The notes below the pieces were generated by a model, which was not told the DNA's origin, ran no database searches, and saw nothing but the letters and a program-made list of their open reading frames with translations. From Spirochaetaceae bacterium (lineage in GTDB: Bacteria > Spirochaetota > Spirochaetia > Treponematales > Rectinemataceae): a stretch of DNA of 46,093 nucleotides. This document shows, piece after piece, positions 3,686 to 12,336 of this stretch (position 1 is the first letter of the stretch; the number at the start of each line of letters is the position of its first letter). A program made the position numbers and the translations under genes. Where the stretch lies: the NCBI GenBank assembly GCA_025355995.1, contig JANXYQ010000091.1, positions 1 to 46,093 of the forward strand. Direction: 5' to 3'.

Positions 3686-4675
3686 ATGGCCGCGCTCGGA
3701 CAGGTGGCGGCGAGCATAGCGCATCAGTTCGCCACGCCCCTCGGCGCCATGACCTCTTCCAACGAGAACATCATCGCGGTCCTGGGCGACGACCTGCCCC
3801 AAACCCTCAAGGGATTCGCCGCGCTCGGTCCCGAGGACCGCGGGACCTTCCTCTCGCTGGTGGCCAAGGGGCGGGGTGGATCGGCCTCGTCGGCCCGTAG
3901 CGCCGATTCCCGCGCCGATCGCGCGATGAAGCTAGCCGCGAGGGCTAGGCTTGAAGAGCTCGGGGCCTCCGATCCGGAGTCGACCGCCGAGGACCTCTCG
4001 GACCTCGGAGTCTTGGACGATATCCCCGCCCTCGCCCCGCTGCTCGCGACCGAGGCGGGGCGTACCATGATAGGCTTCGCGCGCAGGCTGTCGAGCGCCT
4101 TCGGATCGGCCCACATCATCCGTCGCTCCGCGGAAAAGGCCGCGGCGGTGATCACTTCCCTCCGCACCTACGTGCGAGGCGATCGATCCTCCGCGGCCGC
4201 GACCATCGACCTCGGCCTGGAGCTGGACCTGCTCATCGGGCTCTACGTCGAGGGCGCGCATCCCGAGGTCGAGATCCGGAGGCGCTATTCTCCGGGGATT
4301 TGCGTCAACGGAAACCCCGATCGCCTCGCTCAAGTCTGGGTGAATATCATAAACAACGCCGTCCAAGCCATGGAGGGGCGAGGCCTGCTCGAGGTCGCCA
4401 TCGAGTCGGAGGGCGAGACCGCGATCGTATCGATCGTCGACGACGGGCCCGGCATCCCCGACGCGATTCAGGGAAGGATGTTCGAGCCCTTCTTCACCAC
4501 GAAGGCCCCCGGCATAGGCAGCGGCCTGGGCCTCGATATCGCGCGCTCCATCATGGCCGAGCACGGGGGATTCTTAGGTTTCACCAGCCGCCCCGGCCGG
4601 ACATCCTTTATCGCCAGGCTCCCCCGCCTGCGCCCCGACGACGCGGCTTCTCAGGCGGCCTCGCAGCCCCTATAA
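3686..4675 (+). CDS. Sensor histidine kinase, catalytic half (in frame with the preceding gene)
   Basis: 329 residues from the ATG at 3686, in the same frame as the sensor half. The phosphoacceptor His13 lies in the H-box IAHQFATPLG. The N-box is VNIINNAVQAM (219-229), the G1 box VDDGPGIPD (251-259), the F-box MFEPFFTTK (265-273) and the G2 box GSGLGL (278-283). All kinase motifs are intact. A charged, Ala-rich insert of roughly 120 residues (about 26-145) splits the dimerisation domain. With the amber read through, the whole gene (2630-4675) would encode a 681-residue membrane kinase. No response regulator gene is adjacent; a TetR regulator follows after six bases. The real start of a separate product, if any, is uncertain. 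Confidence 0.8.
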   Translation: MAALGQVAASIAHQFATPLGAMTSSNENIIAVLGDDLPQTLKGFAALGPEDRGTFLSLVAKGRGGSASSARSADSRADRAMKLAARARLEELGASDPESTAEDLSDLGVLDDIPALAPLLATEAGRTMIGFARRLSSAFGSAHIIRRSAEKAAAVITSLRTYVRGDRSSAAATIDLGLELDLLIGLYVEGAHPEVEIRRRYSPGICVNGNPDRLAQVWVNIINNAVQAMEGRGLLEVAIESEGETAIVSIVDDGPGIPDAIQGRMFEPFFTTKAPGIGSGLGLDIARSIMAEHGGFLGFTSRPGRTSFIARLPRLRPDDAASQAASQPL

Positions 4676-4676
4676 T
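4648..4676 (+). promoter_or_regulatory. Promoter of the TetR-family gene (leaderless arrangement)
   Basis: TTCTCA (4648-4653), 17 bases, perfect TATAAT (4671-4676). The ATG at 4682 begins five bases after the -10, so the mRNA would start at the start codon. The box overlaps the stop codon of the upstream kinase gene. Confidence 0.65.
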
Positions 4677-4681
4677 GCGAT

Positions 4682-5359
4682 ATGCACGAACCGGGAGAAT
4701 CGCGCCCCGCCTGGACGCCGATGTTCGACCGCATCTCGGCGGACAAGCGCCAGCGGGTCCTCTATAGCGCGAAGAGAGCCTTCGCGGAACGGGGTTTCTC
4801 GGGCGCGAACGTCAATGATATAGCTAAGGAGGCCGGCATCAGCGTCGGCGCGCTATACAAGTACTTCCGCTCCAAGGAAGACATCTTCCTCGCGATCATC
4901 GAGGCGAGCCGCGAGCAGCTGGAGTCCATGCTCGACGCGATCCTCGCCGCCGAACCGACCTTCTACGGTAGGGTCGAGGCGATACTGCGCGCGGCCGTGG
5001 ATTCCTCCTCCGCGGACCCGGATATGGTAAGGATATACATCGCCTGCACGACCCAAGAGCTCACGCCCCTCGCGGCCGAGCTGGCCGCCCGCATCGAATC
5101 CGCGGCGGCGACGAAATACAGTGCGATGGTAGCCCGAGCCAGGGAAACGGGGGAGATTTCGCCGCCCTGCGACGATCGCGCGGCCGCGCTCTGCCTGGAC
5201 GACCTATTCCTGGCGCTGCAGTTCGCGTTCGGCTCCGCCTATTACCGGGAAAGGCTGCGGGTCTTCCTGGGCGAGAGCGCCGAAGACGGCCCCGACGCGG
5301 CTGTAGCCTCCATGCTCTCCTTCATACGAGCGTCGTTCGGGGGCTCCGGCGTCCTTTGA
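4682..5359 (+). CDS. TetR/AcrR-family transcriptional regulator
   Basis: 225 residues. The N-terminal helix-turn-helix spans about residues 25-70, with the typical pattern AFAERGFSGANVNDIAKEA followed by GISVGALYKYFRSKEDIF. The C-terminal helical domain for ligand binding and dimerisation has no recognisable specificity. Members are usually repressors that act on their own or a neighbouring promoter. The ATG at 4682 fits a leaderless transcript; an internal ATG at 4721 would give a 212-residue protein that still holds the whole DNA-binding domain. The gene ends one base from the stop codon of the convergent pyridoxal kinase gene. Target genes are not evident. Confidence 0.85.
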   Translation: MHEPGESRPAWTPMFDRISADKRQRVLYSAKRAFAERGFSGANVNDIAKEAGISVGALYKYFRSKEDIFLAIIEASREQLESMLDAILAAEPTFYGRVEAILRAAVDSSSADPDMVRIYIACTTQELTPLAAELAARIESAAATKYSAMVARARETGEISPPCDDRAAALCLDDLFLALQFAFGSAYYRERLRVFLGESAEDGPDAAVASMLSFIRASFGGSGVL

Positions 5360-5360
5360 C

Positions 5361-6215
5361 CTAGACCTTTTTCGCCTCGAAGCGCCTTTGGGGCACCGCG
5401 ATCGACTCCTGAGCCTGTACGATGCGCAGTTCCCTCCCTCCGTCGGAGTAACTCCTCTCGAAGACCGAGTATACCGAATCGGCCATCGACTCGAGGGCGG
5501 ACACCGGGTCCTTGCAGGCCAGGTAGTGCCCGAGGAATAGGGCTGAGCTCAGGTCTCCCGCCCCGCTCAGCGGCGGATCGAGGGGGAACTCCGGCGTCGA
5601 GAGGATATGAAATCCCTCTTTCGAGGATAGGAACATCGATATCGCGGAGTCGCCTTGGTCGGCCGGCTTGAAGCTGGTCATCAGGACTATGGATGGACCC
5701 ATTTCATGGATGGCCTCGCAGGCCCGCTTGGCCTCGTCTATGCTCTCGATCACGGAATGGGATATAGCCTCAGCTTCGAATTGATTGGGAGTGACGATAT
5801 CCGCGGAGCGGATCGCATGGCCGATGATGAAATCGGATATCGCCTCGTCGACGAAAAACCCCGTGCCGAAGTCTCCCATGACGGGGTCGCAACAATAGAG
5901 GGCTCCCGGATGGGCGGCTTTCACGTCGTCGACCGCTTGAAGGATGAAGTGGCCTACCTCGGCCGCGCCCAGATAGCCGGTTAGGACCGCCTCGCAATCC
6001 CCGACGCGGCCTCGCGCCTTTACCCCGCTCCATACGAGGGAGAGATGGGCGGAGGTGAAGACCTCCCCCGTCCATGAGCCGTAGCCGGTGTGGTTGGAAA
6101 ACTGGACGGTATTGATCGGCCATACATCATATCCCAATCTTTCGAGGGGGAAAACGGCGGCCCTATTTCCGACATGGCCGTATGCAACGTGGGACTGAAT
6201 AGAAAGAATGGCCAC
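5361..6215 (-). CDS. pdxY: Pyridoxal kinase (PdxY type)
   Basis: Phosphorylates pyridoxal with ATP in the vitamin B6 salvage pathway. 284 residues, as usual. The N-terminus (SIQSHVAYGHVGNRAA) and INTVQFSNHTGYGSWTG (about 34-50) are characteristic of PdxY. DPVMGD lies at about 110-115, and the ribokinase-fold catalytic motif GAGD at 218-221 contains the catalytic Asp. The start is GTG at 6215, preceded by GGAGG at the right distance. An isolated TATACT lies about 20 bases upstream without a convincing -35. Its 3' end is one base from that of the TetR gene on the other strand. Confidence 0.92.
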   Translation of the reverse strand: MAILSIQSHVAYGHVGNRAAVFPLERLGYDVWPINTVQFSNHTGYGSWTGEVFTSAHLSLVWSGVKARGRVGDCEAVLTGYLGAAEVGHFILQAVDDVKAAHPGALYCCDPVMGDFGTGFFVDEAISDFIIGHAIRSADIVTPNQFEAEAISHSVIESIDEAKRACEAIHEMGPSIVLMTSFKPADQGDSAISMFLSSKEGFHILSTPEFPLDPPLSGAGDLSSALFLGHYLACKDPVSALESMADSVYSVFERSYSDGGRELRIVQAQESIAVPQRRFEAKKV

Positions 6216-6274
6216 TCAAAGCCTCCGATAAAGTATAACTCGGATACAAAGCCGCATCCTTATGCGAAGCCGAT

Positions 6275-7543
6275 TTATTCGCGCGTTTCGGGCAGCTTCG
6301 ATTCCATTTCTCCCATGCACACGAGCAAGAAGCGGTTCAGGAGGTCGAGTCCCCTTCCATCGAGGGCGGGCCCTCGACTCGCCGAAGCGCCAGGCAAGGG
6401 TTCGCCTGCGACGATCCGCGCGCTCCAGGCACGGAGGCTGTCGCCGATGAGGTCCTCGGCCTCGCGTCCGAAACGCCTCCGGAAGGATTCGAGCTCGAGC
6501 CCGAAAGAAGTACGAAAGGCCATCATGAGGGCTTCGAAAGCGGAATCGCGCAGCCCGACCCGTGTCTCCTTCGCCTCCGCGCCGGCTAGGCGGCGGTAAT
6601 CCTCGATTCTCTTCCGTTCCTCGATCCTAAGCGATGTCCCTGAGTTCGTTCCTATGGTCGAGACGGCTCCCGGCCCCGCGCCGACATAGGAGTCCATCCG
6701 CCAATACGCGAGGTTATGGAGGCATTCGTCCCCCTTCCCGGCGTAATTTGAAACCTCGTAGCGGCGCATCCCGATAGCCCGAATGCTGGCTTCGAGCCTT
6801 TGCCGAGCCTCCCAGTCCTCATCCTCGCCGGGGAAGCGATACCTGTCCTTGGCTGCGGCGAGCGGGGTGCCCTCCTCTACCGTCAAGTCGTAGACCGACA
6901 GGTGCTTGGCGCCCGCTCCGATAAGCTCGAGGGCGAACCGCGCGAGCTTTCCCGAATCGCCGTAATCGCGGGCGGAATCCCTGGCCGCCGGAATCCCCGC
7001 AATCAGGTCGGCCGAAACGGCCATTCCCGCATTGGCCCCGAGCCGGACCGCGCCGAGTGCGGCCTCGGGTCCATGTCTCCTGCCCAGAGCCCCGAGCTCG
7101 TCCGGGTCGAGGCTCTGCACGCCGATGCTGAGCCTGGTGACGCCGAAGCTCCGCATCAGCTCCAGGTTTTCGGCGTCCAGGCTGTCGGGATTCGCCTCCA
7201 CCGTCCATTCCTTCGGAGGTATCGAGCGTGAGCCCATGGACAATCGGCCTAGGCCCTCGAGGAGCCTGGCCAAGGCATCCAGCGAGAGAATGGTCGGAGT
7301 CCCTCCGCCAATATAAACCGTTTCATAGCCGTCTGCGCCGAATCGCTCCGATAGGATCGAGGCTCGCTCAAGGATGGCGTCGACGAGCTCGATGTGGACC
7401 GCATCGTAGTCAGGACTCCGAGGCGAAGCGGCTACCGAGAAAAAATCGCAATAGGCGCATTTCGAGGCGCAGAGCGGGATGTGGATATAGAGGGATCGTG
7501 GGGTTACGAAGTCCGGCGACGCATCGTAGCCGCGAAGGTCCAT
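6275..7543 (-). CDS. hemW: HemW-type radical SAM protein (heme chaperone; coproporphyrinogen dehydrogenase-like)
   Basis: 422 residues. The radical SAM motif CASKCAYC (Cys25, Cys29, Cys32) lies close to the N-terminus, with the family signature SLYIHIPLC before it and FFSV after it. YIGGGTPT, VEANPD and RLSIGVQS follow in the usual order. The HemW family was long annotated as oxygen-independent coproporphyrinogen III oxidase but is known to bind and deliver heme. No HemN-specific features are obvious. The ATG at 7543 overlaps the TGA of the upstream signal peptidase-like gene (TGATG), which suggests translational coupling. An open frame extends upstream of this ATG but overlaps that gene and is not needed. 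Confidence 0.9.
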   Translation of the reverse strand: MDLRGYDASPDFVTPRSLYIHIPLCASKCAYCDFFSVAASPRSPDYDAVHIELVDAILERASILSERFGADGYETVYIGGGTPTILSLDALARLLEGLGRLSMGSRSIPPKEWTVEANPDSLDAENLELMRSFGVTRLSIGVQSLDPDELGALGRRHGPEAALGAVRLGANAGMAVSADLIAGIPAARDSARDYGDSGKLARFALELIGAGAKHLSVYDLTVEEGTPLAAAKDRYRFPGEDEDWEARQRLEASIRAIGMRRYEVSNYAGKGDECLHNLAYWRMDSYVGAGPGAVSTIGTNSGTSLRIEERKRIEDYRRLAGAEAKETRVGLRDSAFEALMMAFRTSFGLELESFRRRFGREAEDLIGDSLRAWSARIVAGEPLPGASASRGPALDGRGLDLLNRFLLVCMGEMESKLPETRE

Positions 7544-8325
7544 CAAGGCGGACCGAAGCGCTTCAGCGGCCAGTATCGAAGCAGGACCTTCGCGTCGAAG
7601 CGATCCAAGCGCACGGGACCCCAAAGCCGAGAATCGCTCGATGAGGAGCGGGCGTCGCCCGCGAGGTAGTACTCGTCCTTGCCGAGGACCCTCTCCTCCA
7701 TCTGTCCCGACCCGGGCAGGTCGGCCTTCCACCCAATGGGCGCATCCTCGTGGGAAATGTCATATCGATTGGACGAAAGCTCGAATTCGGTCAGGAACTG
7801 GTCGCTTCCGGCGATCTTGACCTTGAAGACGAAATCGTCCATCCGGATCGTATCTCCCGGCAGGCCGACGACCCGCTGAAGCGTCGGTGCGGAGGGAATG
7901 CCGTCGCTCTTCGCGGAGCCGCTGGTCGTCGGTTTCTTCGTTTCCGGTCCGGTTGCGGGCGCGTAGGCAGGAGAGACGAGTTGGAAGGTCACGAAGCGAA
8001 CGAGGGAGTCGGAGAGGAGGGCCCAGAAGCCCAGTCGCTTGGCATAATTGGGTTCGACCACGACGACGTCTCCCCTCGCGGGGCGCGAGACACCCCGGAG
8101 CTTGCCGAAAAGCGTGCGCGGTCCGAAGGCGAGCGGCGTCGCCAATAAGCGATCGCCCGGCAGGACGGTCGGAGCCATAGCCTGGGATCTCATGGAGTAC
8201 GTGGCGAGGAAAAAACCCGAGAGGAATTCGTAGCACAGGAAGACGAGGAGAAGTACGGACAGGCGCTTCGCTGTCCTGCGCCTACCCTGTACGGCCTCCG
8301 CGTAGGATCGTCGCTTACCGGCCAA
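7543..8325 (-). CDS. Signal peptidase I-like membrane protein lacking the catalytic Ser/Lys dyad
   Basis: 260 residues if started at TTG 8325 (GGGGA upstream); the frame stays open beyond but would run into smpB. One membrane helix lies at about residues 22-43. Box B reads RSQAMAPTVLPGD where active enzymes have SGSMxPTL: the nucleophile Ser is Ala49. Box D reads LQRVVGLPGD where active enzymes have the general base Lys: here Gln150. Box E (GDARSSSSDSRLWGPV, about 223-238) is well kept. About 55 residues are inserted between boxes C and D. The fold is clearly S26 signal peptidase, but both catalytic residues are absent. It should not cleave signal peptides by the known mechanism; a binding or chaperone role is possible. 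It is coupled to hemW by the TGATG overlap. Confidence 0.82.
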   Translation of the reverse strand: MAGKRRSYAEAVQGRRRTAKRLSVLLLVFLCYEFLSGFFLATYSMRSQAMAPTVLPGDRLLATPLAFGPRTLFGKLRGVSRPARGDVVVVEPNYAKRLGFWALLSDSLVRFVTFQLVSPAYAPATGPETKKPTTSGSAKSDGIPSAPTLQRVVGLPGDTIRMDDFVFKVKIAGSDQFLTEFELSSNRYDISHEDAPIGWKADLPGSGQMEERVLGKDEYYLAGDARSSSSDSRLWGPVRLDRFDAKVLLRYWPLKRFGPP

Positions 8326-8394
8326 GATCGTCCCCGAAACGTGGTTTGAACATCGCGCAAGGACACTAGCATGATCGCGCCGCGCAGAGCTAGC

Positions 8395-8435
8395 CTTTCC
8401 CCCGCGTTGACAAGCGGGAAAGCGGTTCCTATAAT
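8395..8435 (+). promoter_or_regulatory. Consensus promoter of smpB inside an inverted repeat
   Basis: Perfect TTGACA (8407-8412), 17 bases, perfect TATAAT (8430-8435). The -35 box sits in the centre of an inverted repeat, CTTTCCCCCGC (8395-8405) against GCGGGAAAG (8414-8422). The GTG start of smpB follows eight bases after the -10, and no Shine-Dalgarno sequence is present. The promoter is very strong by sequence; the repeat may be an operator. Confidence 0.8.
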
Positions 8436-8443
8436 CGTTTCGC

Positions 8444-8917
8444 GTGAGCATACCCGAGGGCGTCAAGGTCGTGGCCGTCAATAGGCGAGCTCATTTCGAC
8501 TACGCGATAGACGAGACCTTCGAGTGCGGCGTATGCCTCCTCGGCACCGAGGTCAAATCCATAAAAGAGAACAGATTCTCCTTCCCGGACGCCTTCGCCG
8601 AAGTCCGCGACGGAGAGGTATGGATGAGGAATTTCAACGTCTCCGAATACCCTTTCTCCTCGGCCGCGTTCCAGCATGAGCCCGAGAGGAAGAAGAAGCT
8701 CCTCCTCCATGCCCAAGAGATAAAGCGCATAGATCGTCGAGTCCGGGAGAAAGGCTATACCCTCGTCCCCCTATCGGTCTATCTCAAAAAAGGACTCATC
8801 AAGATCGAGCTCGGCCTCTGCAAGGGAAAGAAGATGTACGACAAGCGCTCCGACATAAGGGAAAAGGAATTGGATAGGGAGATGCACCGCGCCCTCAGGC
8901 GCAGGAACGAAGGCTGA
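8444..8917 (+). CDS. smpB: SsrA-binding protein SmpB
   Basis: 157 residues. Binds tmRNA and delivers it to stalled ribosomes for trans-translation. Family features: VAVNRRAHFDYAIDETFECGV at the N-terminus, GTEVKSIKENRFSF, and the C-terminal KGKKMYDKRSDIREKE preceding a basic tail that enters the decoding centre. The GTG start at 8444 is supported by the protein alignment pattern and by the promoter placed immediately before it. rsmD follows six bases after the stop. Confidence 0.95.
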   Translation: MSIPEGVKVVAVNRRAHFDYAIDETFECGVCLLGTEVKSIKENRFSFPDAFAEVRDGEVWMRNFNVSEYPFSSAAFQHEPERKKKLLLHAQEIKRIDRRVREKGYTLVPLSVYLKKGLIKIELGLCKGKKMYDKRSDIREKELDREMHRALRRRNEG

Positions 8918-8923
8918 GCGCAG

Positions 8924-9466
8924 ATGCGCATAACCGGCGGCAAGTACCGAGGCAGGAGCGTCGACGTCCCCAAGGGCGGCCTGGAGATCCGGCCGGCCAT
9001 GGATCGCATGCGCGAATCGGTCTTCGCCGTGCTCGGCGACCTAACCGGGCTCTCCTTCCTCGATCTTTTTTCGGGTTCGGGAGTCATCGCGCTCGAGGCC
9101 GCGAGCAGGGGCGCGTCTCCCGTGGCCTGCGTCGAGAAGGACCCGGGAAAATTCGCGCTCCTACTTCGCAATGTCTCGATAGCCACCGAGAGGATCGACT
9201 GCAAGTCCATGCCCGTCGAGAGGTTCATCCTGCGGAACAAGACCGGCTTCTCGGTCGTTTTCCTCGATCCGCCCTTCCCGTACCGCTATCGGGTCGAGCT
9301 CCTGTCGAGCCTCGCCGACGGGCCCTCCGCAGCTCCGGGTGGCCTGGTCCTCGTGCATTATCCCGCGGAAGATGCGCCTCCGGACGCGATAGGCGCACTA
9401 GCCCTTGAGGACGAGCGGGAGTACGGCAGGTCGCGCGTGAGGTTTTACAGGAAATCGCGCCCCTAA
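8924..9466 (+). CDS. rsmD: 16S rRNA (guanine(966)-N(2))-methyltransferase
   Basis: 180 residues. Methylates G966 of 16S rRNA in the 30S subunit using S-adenosylmethionine. MRITGGKYRGR is the typical start. The SAM-binding motif DLFSGSGVIALEA lies at 47-59, with the acidic strand end VEKD at 70-73. The catalytic N-methyltransferase motif DPPF is at 115-118. It follows smpB by six bases and is probably cotranscribed with it. The C-terminus overlaps the end of a doubtful small minus-strand frame by four bases. Confidence 0.93.
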   Translation: MRITGGKYRGRSVDVPKGGLEIRPAMDRMRESVFAVLGDLTGLSFLDLFSGSGVIALEAASRGASPVACVEKDPGKFALLLRNVSIATERIDCKSMPVERFILRNKTGFSVVFLDPPFPYRYRVELLSSLADGPSAAPGGLVLVHYPAEDAPPDAIGALALEDEREYGRSRVRFYRKSRP

Positions 9467-9663
9467 GGGTCCCTGGAGCGCAGGCAGGCAGCGACTCTCT
9501 CGGCCGCGGAGAACGATACGCATTGTTCGGTAGAAACAACCGCGAGGAATGGCGGCGATTTATCGCTCGGCTGCCGCGAAGCCGCGGGCGGGGCCTGGGC
9601 CGCGCCGATCGCGGGTGACGAGCCTTTCGTAGGCGCTTTCGCCATATTTCGCCCATTCGCCAT
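9463..9663 (-). CDS. Small hypothetical protein (doubtful)
   Basis: An open frame of 66 codons on the minus strand from ATG 9663 to TAG, the only candidate gene in the 310-base gap between rsmD and the next gene. The second half (FLAVVSTEQCVSFSAAERVA) looks protein-like; the first half is rich in Ala, Pro and Ser. No Shine-Dalgarno sequence precedes the start, no family is recognised, and high G+C makes chance frames likely. Low confidence. Confidence 0.25.
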   Translation of the reverse strand: MANGRNMAKAPTKGSSPAIGAAQAPPAASRQPSDKSPPFLAVVSTEQCVSFSAAERVAACLRSRDP

Positions 9664-9701
9664 GCGACGAAATTAAAAGTATCGCGCGCATCACCGTAAA
9701 A

Positions 9702-9728
9702 CAACCCGGTACGACTAATCGCGGGTTG
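9702..9728. repeat. Inverted repeat upstream of the TPR operon, overlapping the -35 box
   Basis: CAACCCG (9702-9708) and CGGGTTG (9722-9728) are perfect 7-base inverted copies with a 13-base spacer. The right arm overlaps the first three bases of the predicted -35 element (9726-9731). It may be an operator or the terminator stem of the rsmD transcript; no T-run follows. Confidence 0.45.
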
Positions 9729-9754
9729 ATTATTGGATGCTTATCCTATATATT
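9726..9754 (+). promoter_or_regulatory. Promoter of the TPR gene pair
   Basis: TTGATT (9726-9731), 17 bases, TATATT (9749-9754), in a locally AT-rich segment. The predicted transcription start near 9761 leaves a leader of about 16 bases without a clear Shine-Dalgarno sequence before the ATG at 9777. Apart from this promoter, the inverted repeat and the doubtful small frame, I see nothing in 9467-9776. Confidence 0.65.
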
Positions 9755-9776
9755 TTTATGAGTACGGCAGCATATT

Positions 9777-10118
9777 ATGGATAAAAACCTATTCGATCGC
9801 TTCCCGGCTGATTGCCTCATCAAGACGGCCGACTTGCCTACTCCCGGCGTCGAGGGCGACCGAAAGGTCAAGCTCAACCGCAAGGGGAACGAGCTTTTCA
9901 ATCGCGGCGACGTCGAAGCGGCGCGGCGCATCTTCCAAACCACCGGTTATTCGGACGGCCTCATCCGCGTAGGCGACAAGTACCTGTCCGATAGGAAGCC
10001 GATAGACGCGCTGAAGATGTACCGCCTCGCGCGAGACGACAAGCGCTCGGAAGGCATCATCAACACCGCCGCGCTGGTTATCCAACATTTACTTAATGAG
10101 GAAGAGGAAGCGAAGTGA
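9777..10118 (+). CDS. Conserved-looking small protein with a TPR-like helical segment
   Basis: 113 residues, charged and soluble. Residues about 40-110 form helix pairs of the tetratricopeptide type (GNELFNRGDVEAARRIFQTT, KYLSDRKPIDALKMYRLAR). No enzyme motif is visible. Its TGA overlaps the GTG of the next gene (GTGA), so the two are translationally coupled and likely to act together. Pairs of a small protein followed by a long TPR protein next to rlmN are, as I recall, seen in treponemes; no function is known to me. Confidence 0.75.
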   Translation: MDKNLFDRFPADCLIKTADLPTPGVEGDRKVKLNRKGNELFNRGDVEAARRIFQTTGYSDGLIRVGDKYLSDRKPIDALKMYRLARDDKRSEGIINTAALVIQHLLNEEEEAK

Positions 10119-11254
10119 GCGACAATAACATTCCCGAGTCCGTCCGCAAGGAAGGCGAGCACGATGCTCCGAACCAAGAGCTCGCCGAGATCGCGGAGCT
10201 CTCCAAGAAGGGATACCAATACCTCAAAGAGAACCGCATCGAGGAAGCCGAGGAATGCTTCGCCCGGATCCTCGAGCGGGATAGGGAGAACAATTACGCC
10301 CTCGTAGGCCTCGGCGACGCCGCTCGAAAGCGAGGTGCGTTTCGCGAGGCCGTGGACCACTACAAGAAATGCCTCGTCTACCATCCCGGGAATAACTACG
10401 CCCTCTTCGGCCTGGCCGACTGCTACAAGGCCCTCAACCAATATCAGAAGGCGATCGAGATCTGGGAACAGTACCTCCTCCACGACAACAAGAACATCAC
10501 GGTGCTCACGCGCGTCGCCGACGCGTATCGCAAGGTCAGGGACTTCCGGAAATCGAAGGCCATCTACCTGCGCGTGCTCGAGATGGAGACCGACAATCCT
10601 TACGCGCTGATCGGTCTCGGGCATCTCCATTACGATTTCAAGGAGTACAAGGACGCCCTCGGCTATTGGCAACGGATGGTCGACCTCCAAGGCGACGAGG
10701 TCGACATCCGCGTCCTCACCTCCATAGGCAATTGCTACAGGAAGCTCAAGCAATTCGAGCTGGGCGTCCCCTACTTTGAAAAGGCCCTGGGCAAGGAACC
10801 GGACAACTTCTACGCCCTGTTCGGCCTGGCCGACTGCTACCGCGGCACCGGCACCCCCGAGGGCTCCCTGGACTTCTGGAACCGCATACTCGTGAAGGAC
10901 CCCAAGAATAAGGTGATCCTCACGCGCGCGGGCGACGCCTACCGGAGCATGGACGACTACGAGAAGGCCGCCGACTACTACGAGCGCGCCCTGAATATCG
11001 AGTTCGACGTGTACGCCGTGCTCGGCCTCGCGGTGATCGCCCGCATGCAGGGCAAGACCCAGGACGCGATCGTGTCGCTGCGCAAGCTCATCCAGAACGA
11101 CCCCAAGAACTACCGCCTCTATCTAGAGCTTTCGCTGTGCTACCAAGCCACGGGGGATCGCCAAAAGGCCCTCGAGGTGCTCACGGACTTCCAGCGCATG
11201 GGCATCCGCAATATCTACGTCCAGGACGCCGCCGCGAAGCTTCAGCGTTCCTAA
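10115..11254 (+). CDS. Tetratricopeptide repeat protein
   Basis: 379 residues made almost entirely of about nine TPR units in tandem from residue 25 to the end, with clear repeats such as YALVGLGDAARKRGAFREA, YALFGLADCYKALNQYQKA and VLTRVADAYRKVRDFRKS. There is no signal peptide or membrane helix, so it should be cytoplasmic and serve as a scaffold for protein binding. The GTG start at 10115 overlaps the stop of the upstream gene and has an AGGAAG sequence before it. The partner is unknown. A hairpin spans its stop codon. Confidence 0.88.
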   Translation: MSDNNIPESVRKEGEHDAPNQELAEIAELSKKGYQYLKENRIEEAEECFARILERDRENNYALVGLGDAARKRGAFREAVDHYKKCLVYHPGNNYALFGLADCYKALNQYQKAIEIWEQYLLHDNKNITVLTRVADAYRKVRDFRKSKAIYLRVLEMETDNPYALIGLGHLHYDFKEYKDALGYWQRMVDLQGDEVDIRVLTSIGNCYRKLKQFELGVPYFEKALGKEPDNFYALFGLADCYRGTGTPEGSLDFWNRILVKDPKNKVILTRAGDAYRSMDDYEKAADYYERALNIEFDVYAVLGLAVIARMQGKTQDAIVSLRKLIQNDPKNYRLYLELSLCYQATGDRQKALEVLTDFQRMGIRNIYVQDAAAKLQRS

Positions 11255-11273
11255 AGCTTCGCTGACGCTTCGC
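11234..11273 (+). terminator. Hairpin across the stop codon of the TPR gene (possible terminator)
   Basis: GCGAAGCTTCAGCG (11234-11247) and CGCTGACGCTTCGC (11260-11273) form a 14-base-pair stem with one mismatch and a 12-base loop that holds the TAA stop. The T-run (five T at about 11294) is 20 bases away, so it is not a classical intrinsic terminator; it may slow or end transcription, or protect the 3' end of the mRNA. Confidence 0.5.
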
Positions 11274-11310
11274 CAGGCCTGCGGAGAGCATCCCTTTTTA
11301 TTGAGGTTCC

Positions 11311-12336
11311 ATGGATTCCTTATATGGCATGTCCCCGGCCGAATTGGCGCTCGCCTGCGCCTTTCGAGCTCCCTTCCGCTCCAGGCAGGTCCATAGCTGG
11401 CTCGCGCGCGGCGCGACTTCCTTCGACGAAATGACCGACCTCCCCCTCCTGGAGAGGGAGAGACTAAAGGCGCTAATCCCGCGCATCGCCTCGTCCGAGC
11501 CGGCGACCGAGTTCGAGGATCCCGACGGCTCGCTCAAGCTCCAGCTTCGCCTGACCGACGGCGCGGCCGTGGAGTGCGTGATGCTCGAGGACATCGAGGG
11601 CCGAAAGACGGCGTGCCTATCCTCCCAGGTCGGCTGCCCGATGGCCTGCGCCTTCTGCAAGACGGGGACCCTGGGCTACCTCCGCGACCTCTCCGCAGGG
11701 GAGATCATGGAGCAGTTCCATTTCCTCTCCGCCCGCCGCGGCCCGGCGTCCAACGTCGTGTTCATGGGCATGGGCGAGCCCTGCTCCAACCTGGGCGCGG
11801 TTCGAAAGGCTATATCGATACTATCCGGGACTGTCGGCATTTCCCTTCGCAAGATCACGATATCGACGAGCGGCCTGGTGCCCGGCATCCTCGAGCTCGC
11901 GGAGAAGGGCCCTCCGGTCCGCCTCGCGGTATCCCTTACATCGGCGAACGAGGAGCTGCGCAGCCGCCTCATGCCCGTGAACAGGAGCTGGGGGCTCGCC
12001 GCCCTCAAGGACGCCCTGACTCGCTATCAAGTCACGACTGGCGAGCGCGTCACCCTCGAGTGCGCGATCATGGGCGGGGTCAACTCCTCGCCCGCGAGCG
12101 CACGCGAGCTGGTGGACTGGATCGGCGGCCTGCAGGTCCAGGTCAACGTGATTCCTTGGAACAAGGTGCCCGGGCTGCCCTTCGTCGAGCCGACGCGCGA
12201 GGAGCTCGAGGCCTACATGGCCGTCCTCGACTCGGCCGGAGTCGTCGCGAGCCGCCGGATGAGGCGCGGGCGAGGCGTAATGGGCGCCTGCGGGCAGCTC
12301 GGGGAAACGCTGCTGGTTCCTCGGAAAGTCGAATAG
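11311..12336 (+). CDS. rlmN: Dual-specificity RNA methyltransferase RlmN
   Basis: 341 residues. Radical SAM enzyme that methylates C2 of A2503 in 23S rRNA and A37 in some tRNAs. The motif CPMACAFC gives the iron-sulfur ligands Cys109, Cys113 and Cys116. GMGEP, KITISTSGLVPGI and LAVSLTSANEELR follow as in the family. The methyl-carrying Cys327 lies in GACGQL near the C-terminus. It ends nine bases from the stop of the convergent mrfB gene. It may be read from the TPR promoter or its own; none is obvious. Confidence 0.94.
   Translation: MDSLYGMSPAELALACAFRAPFRSRQVHSWLARGATSFDEMTDLPLLERERLKALIPRIASSEPATEFEDPDGSLKLQLRLTDGAAVECVMLEDIEGRKTACLSSQVGCPMACAFCKTGTLGYLRDLSAGEIMEQFHFLSARRGPASNVVFMGMGEPCSNLGAVRKAISILSGTVGISLRKITISTSGLVPGILELAEKGPPVRLAVSLTSANEELRSRLMPVNRSWGLAALKDALTRYQVTTGERVTLECAIMGGVNSSPASARELVDWIGGLQVQVNVIPWNKVPGLPFVEPTREELEAYMAVLDSAGVVASRRMRRGRGVMGACGQLGETLLVPRKVE

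Follow-up and report, generated by a model that had tools for sequence, protein, structure and literature searches.

The gene at positions 7543-8325 of the window, a 46,093-nucleotide stretch of DNA from a Spirochaetaceae bacterium, most likely encodes a catalytically dead paralogue of signal peptidase I, judging from its sequence. This protein, here termed L2, is a pseudo-signal peptidase with the S26 fold. It belongs to a family whose catalytic dyad appears to have been lost repeatedly across the spirochaetes, including the lineages of syphilis and Lyme disease, while selection kept the protein. As to its role, we lean, with reservation, toward a non-catalytic accessory in signal-peptide processing.

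Fold and catalytic positions of the window protein

The L2 gene lies on the minus strand, as do all of the L2 features given below, and encodes 260 amino acids. Direct reading places its TTG start at 8325, with GGGGA approximately 5 nt upstream, and its TGA stop at 7545-7543. The protein scores 77.8 bits against Pfam PF10502 (cut-off 22.9) and 71 against the NCBIfam model TIGR02227 "signal peptidase I" (cut-off 47). In the AlphaFold2 model (pLDDT 84.8), a single N-terminal helix is predicted at residues 8-38 (8212-8304) as a membrane anchor, and a conserved basic cytosolic tail, KRRSYAEAV, stands before it. The best PDB match of the model is E. coli LepB (1b12; Z 16.1, rmsd 3.5 over 162 residues), followed by the inactive SipA of Streptococcus pyogenes (4n31; Z 14.0, rmsd 2.3 over 123 residues). 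The S26 fold and the membrane anchor are thus predicted to be kept. Boxes C and E are shared with LepB, and box E (GDARSSSSDSR, residues 223-233; 7627-7659) carries the equivalents of Gly272, Ser278, Asp280, and Arg282; sequence and model agree with an earlier note that had described this box and the helix as retained. Two further segments are characteristic of the family: the L2-specific motif RFVTFQ (residues 110-115; 7981-7998), which has no counterpart in standard LepB, and the conserved FLTEFEL segment (residues 177-183; 7777-7797), in which Thr179 and Glu180 are near-invariant. A low-confidence insert at about residues 125-143 (7897-7953) is missing from nearly all orthologues, including that of the same genus, and is probably disordered, given the low model confidence.

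The fold and N-terminal anchor of an active S26A signal peptidase such as LepB are accompanied in L2 by the absence of both catalytic residues. Box B reads ATG AGA TCC CAG GCT ATG GCT CCG ACC (MRSQAMAPT) and box D reads CTT CAG CGG GTC GTC (LQRVV). Upon alignment to E. coli LepB structures, RSQAMAPT falls opposite PSGSMMPT and LQRVVGLPGD opposite IKRAVGLPGD, which places Ala49 (GCT, 8179-8181) at the position of the catalytic Ser90 and Gln150 (CAG, 7876-7878) at that of the catalytic Lys145. Codon reading and alignment thereby confirm the two substitutions that the earlier note had proposed. With the equivalents of Ser90 and Lys145 both missing, NCBIfam probably misannotates the protein as "signal peptidase I."

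The relatives speak to how this state arose. In the window's family (f1), none of the 15 full-length L2s has the Lys (Tyr 6, Glu 3, Leu 2, Gln 2, Val 2), the dyad positions read Ser/Leu in G001, a genome of the same genus, and Ala recurs at the Ser position in six other genomes (G015, G043, G232, G109, G221, and G033). Sequencing errors in codons 49 and 150, which the earlier note had raised as a possible refutation, are unlikely in light of these comparable replacements. Although both residues are indeed replaced in the window protein, as that note held, the replacement was not one event: because G001 retains Ser, the Lys would have been lost first, in an older, family-wide change, and the Ser only recently in the window lineage. 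A substitute catalytic pair was also considered and rejected, for no Lys or His column is more than 60% conserved in f1 except residue 75 (13/15), which falls outside every catalytic box. Residual peptidase activity is accordingly unlikely on sequence grounds, no substitute base being conserved.

A whole-genome search with PF10502 returned three further S26 proteins, all with Ser and Lys, so that the intact LepB sought elsewhere in the genome is present. Contig C57 carries two neighboring LepBs of 626 and 632 aa (L063:2962-6764 in G000), each with an intact LepB domain (SESM/VKR), and contig C71 carries one S26 protein of 172 aa. These paralogues are presumably active, as their sequences suggest. 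The long LepB type is kept across the order, with a length of 612 aa in genome G039. A standard LepB of approximately 330 aa was not found in the window genome, which is 95% complete and in which gaps of the metagenome-assembled sequence could conceal further LepBs. Cutting in this organism would be carried out by the LepBs of approximately 630 aa and possibly by the 172-aa protein as well.

Conservation, synteny, and repeated erosion of the dyad

Immediately downstream of L2 is hemW (6275-7543, minus strand), whose start codon overlaps the L2 stop codon (TGATG). The overlap that the earlier note regarded as an oddity is real, but it is ordinary operon structure: the adjacency is conserved across the order, and hemW follows L2 in the extracted loci. 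As a clue to function, hemW was set aside; it is a constant neighbor, yet no mechanism follows from it. Upstream of the window L2 stands a divergent smpB (8444-8917), with no LepB adjoining. The surrounding translations, read by eye over 3686-12336, include histidine-kinase-like (3686-4675), TetR-like (4682-5359), pyridoxal-kinase-like (5361-6215, minus strand), and rsmD-like (8924-9466) genes, TPR proteins (9777-11254), and rlmN (11311-12336). L2 adjoins an intact LepB in 35 of 78 relatives, a standard LepB being upstream of it in families f4 and f5 and in part of f1; no adjacent standard LepB occurs in the window genome or anywhere in the Treponema family.

Searches of 59 relatives and subsequently of 221 genomes from the order gave full-length L2 orthologues in nearly all, and in essentially all surveyed genomes the frame is intact and the position fixed. 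L2 is also present in named records, among them Treponema bryantii and further Treponema and Spirochaetota genomes; the 80 loci of one wider search include many unrelated LepBs from other phyla. Among 78 full-length L2s, the Ser position is occupied by Ser (35), Thr (30), Ala (7), Asn (2), Gly (2), Val (1), and Asp (1), and the Lys position by Lys (36), Arg (24), Tyr (8), Glu (3), Leu (2), Gln (2), Val (2), and Phe (1). Only 14 of the 78 have both residues, versus 37 of 37 adjacent standard LepBs (Fisher p 7e-19). The patterns are family-specific. Lys is absent from all 26 L2s of f3 (Arg 23, Tyr 2, Phe 1), which we take to be the Treponema family, as named Treponema loci share its Ser/Arg state. 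Conversely, all 20 L2s of f5 (loci L162-L181) have Lys; their Ser position holds Thr (16), Ser (3), or Ala (1), and every one of the 20 carries Ser at the Gly272 position. The L2s of f4 are mostly Ser/Lys, and some from f4 and f2 retain Ser, Lys, Gly272, and Ser278; these sequences may still cut, in which case the family function is not non-catalytic everywhere. No L2 of the order retains the box B Pro (IPSxSM) that is invariant in LepB, and box E is less well preserved in the relatives than in the window protein.

On a maximum-likelihood tree built without the two dyad columns, the minimum number of changes by parsimony is 17 for presence of Ser, 3 for presence of Lys, and 7 for the intact dyad, counts that are blind to gain versus loss. 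Dyad erosion was repeated in L2 and never seen in the neighboring LepB. Across the order, a tandem LepB is no predictor of a broken L2 dyad, and the candidate association of tandem-LepB loss with an intact dyad in L2 was not significant (p 0.16 within f2 and f4; 1.0 overall).

Despite this erosion, L2 is kept by purifying selection and is not a dying gene. Pairwise NG86 estimates gave dN/dS of 0.07-0.18 for nine L2 pairs and 0.05-0.20 for four LepB pairs; for the window L2 against G001, dN/dS was 0.15 at a dS of 1.7, near saturation. These values and the intact frames rule out a pseudogene and bear out the earlier suggestion of selection for structure rather than for Ser/Lys chemistry. Columns conserved in L2 and not in LepB include Ser7, Pro52, Phe111, Gln115, Pro156, Thr179, and Trp199; L2 therefore has constraints of its own.

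Genus g12, which falls within the window's family, has an extreme form. Here, L2 is only 183-193 aa long and is missed by Pfam, boxes D and E are unrecognizable, and the LepB beside it is intact (short L2 loci L076:4120-4698, L269:2182-2760, L270:1106-1684, L272:1040-1618, L268:1062-1640, L271:1081-1659, and L072:4374-4922). The basic tail, the membrane helix, a C-terminal strand, and the RFVTFQ region, as RFxTxQ, survive even in these shrunken proteins. Their dN/dS is about 0.17-0.3 in most pairs, with higher values for the frame-broken G025 row, and the model (pLDDT 74.5) is nearest to SipA (Z 9.4). Going by what is left of the sequence, the role of L2 in this genus cannot need the dyad.

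Outside the order, a LepB-L2 pair recurs in class families f6, f8, f9, f10, f14, f15, f16, f18, and f19, in some cases followed by hemW; in these pairs LepB is intact, whereas L2 is broken to varying degrees. For example, the 0.91-Mb genome G373, labeled Borrelia-like partly on gene order, encodes a 335-aa LepB (Ser/Lys) followed by a 212-aa L2-like protein whose sequence has Glu in place of the Ser and Ala in place of the Lys (pair at L245:835-1470 and L245:1477-2481); NCBIfam would still name this homologue signal peptidase I. Two genomes of family f13 with a single LepB show no L2 at Pfam sensitivity. In the distant phylum families f20 and f32, the pairs are intact and adjoin hemW or a long LepB; on a weak deep tree, this suggests that the ancestor of L2 was active. 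Support for the deep tree that joins L2 to outgroup families is weak, so that synteny is the basis for calling orthologues beyond the order.

Possible roles of L2

Two characterized Gram-positive proteins provide points of comparison. The gene spsA adjoins spsB in Staphylococcus aureus, an arrangement like that of L2 and lepB in many spirochaetes and unlike that of the window genome. SpsA, reviewed as inactive and dispensable (PMC12445088), is a homologue of the active SpsB and shows that the two kinds can exist side by side; like L2, it is a type I signal peptidase homologue without either catalytic residue in a species that has an active paralogue. SpsA is, however, a genus-level case, whereas the range of L2 covers a didermal class, in which it has been eroded many times. 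In SipA of S. pyogenes, Ser/Lys is replaced by Asp/Gly, peptidase activity is absent, and the cleft is retained (PMC4049620); such S26 proteins can therefore act by binding. SipA, the second fold match of the window protein, resembles L2 in having the S26 fold without the dyad, but it is encoded within a sortase pilus cluster and functions in pilus assembly, whereas the lepB-hemW operon that holds L2 has no neighboring pilus genes. The window protein accordingly shares with SpsA and SipA a fold without a dyad that is kept by selection.

We somewhat favor an accessory role in signal-peptide processing for the window L2, because LepB recurs as its neighbor in the family and almost every genome of the order has the gene. 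L2 would sit in the inner membrane with its S26 domain in the periplasm and would act as a non-cutting subunit or adaptor, its cleft and surface binding preproteins, intact LepB, or the translocon. The catalytic residues, once dispensable, would then have drifted differently in each spirochaete family. Considerably more tentative is the stronger proposal that the spirochaete signal peptidase consists of two subunits, an intact LepB and a non-catalytic L2 that selects or presents substrates, with the L2 site re-used or discarded independently in each family. The lack of an adjacent LepB in the window genome and in the Treponema family weakens the reading of L2 as a one-to-one partner.

The main rival to the accessory role is that L2 is a dedicated non-cutting chaperone in the manner of SipA and pilin, holding one class of clients in its cleft and unrelated to LepB. 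SipA keeps its cleft without the dyad and is essential for pilus polymerization (PMC4049620), the shrunken L2 resembles it most closely, and L2 persists where the tandem LepB is gone. We nonetheless consider this explanation rather unlikely, since the conserved neighbor in several families is a housekeeping lepB, no client gene is linked to L2, and near-universal presence in the order fits a housekeeping role better. Decay of a redundant paralogue heading for loss would account for boxes B, D, and E being degraded to varying degrees, for the absence of much of the S26 domain in g12, and for the two f13 genomes in which L2 was not detected; it is already disfavored by the selection test, by intact frames at a fixed position, and by conserved columns that LepB does not have, and even the short form mostly shows constraint, which leaves it improbable. 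Least probable of all is a peptidase with alternative catalysis, using Thr/Lys in f5, Ser/Arg in the Treponema family, and another pair in the window protein. The invariant Lys and dominant Thr of f5 and the prevalent Arg of f3 do indicate that these sites are constrained within families, but the window protein and f1 have neither Lys nor a consistent substitute, and every f5 protein has Ser at the Gly272 position, where a side chain would clash with the catalytic Lys according to PMC4049620.

Implications for spirochaete protein export

No earlier description of inactive spirochaete signal peptidases was found in the open-access papers searched. Since standard annotation labels L2s "signal peptidase I," export models and drug-target lists for spirochaetes, including Treponema and relatives of Borrelia, probably count a non-cutting enzyme. 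Beyond annotation, the repeated, family-specific loss of the dyad beside an untouched LepB constitutes a natural experiment on the roles of signal peptidases besides cutting. L2 thus makes testable the question of whether a bacterial signal peptidase needs a non-catalytic partner.
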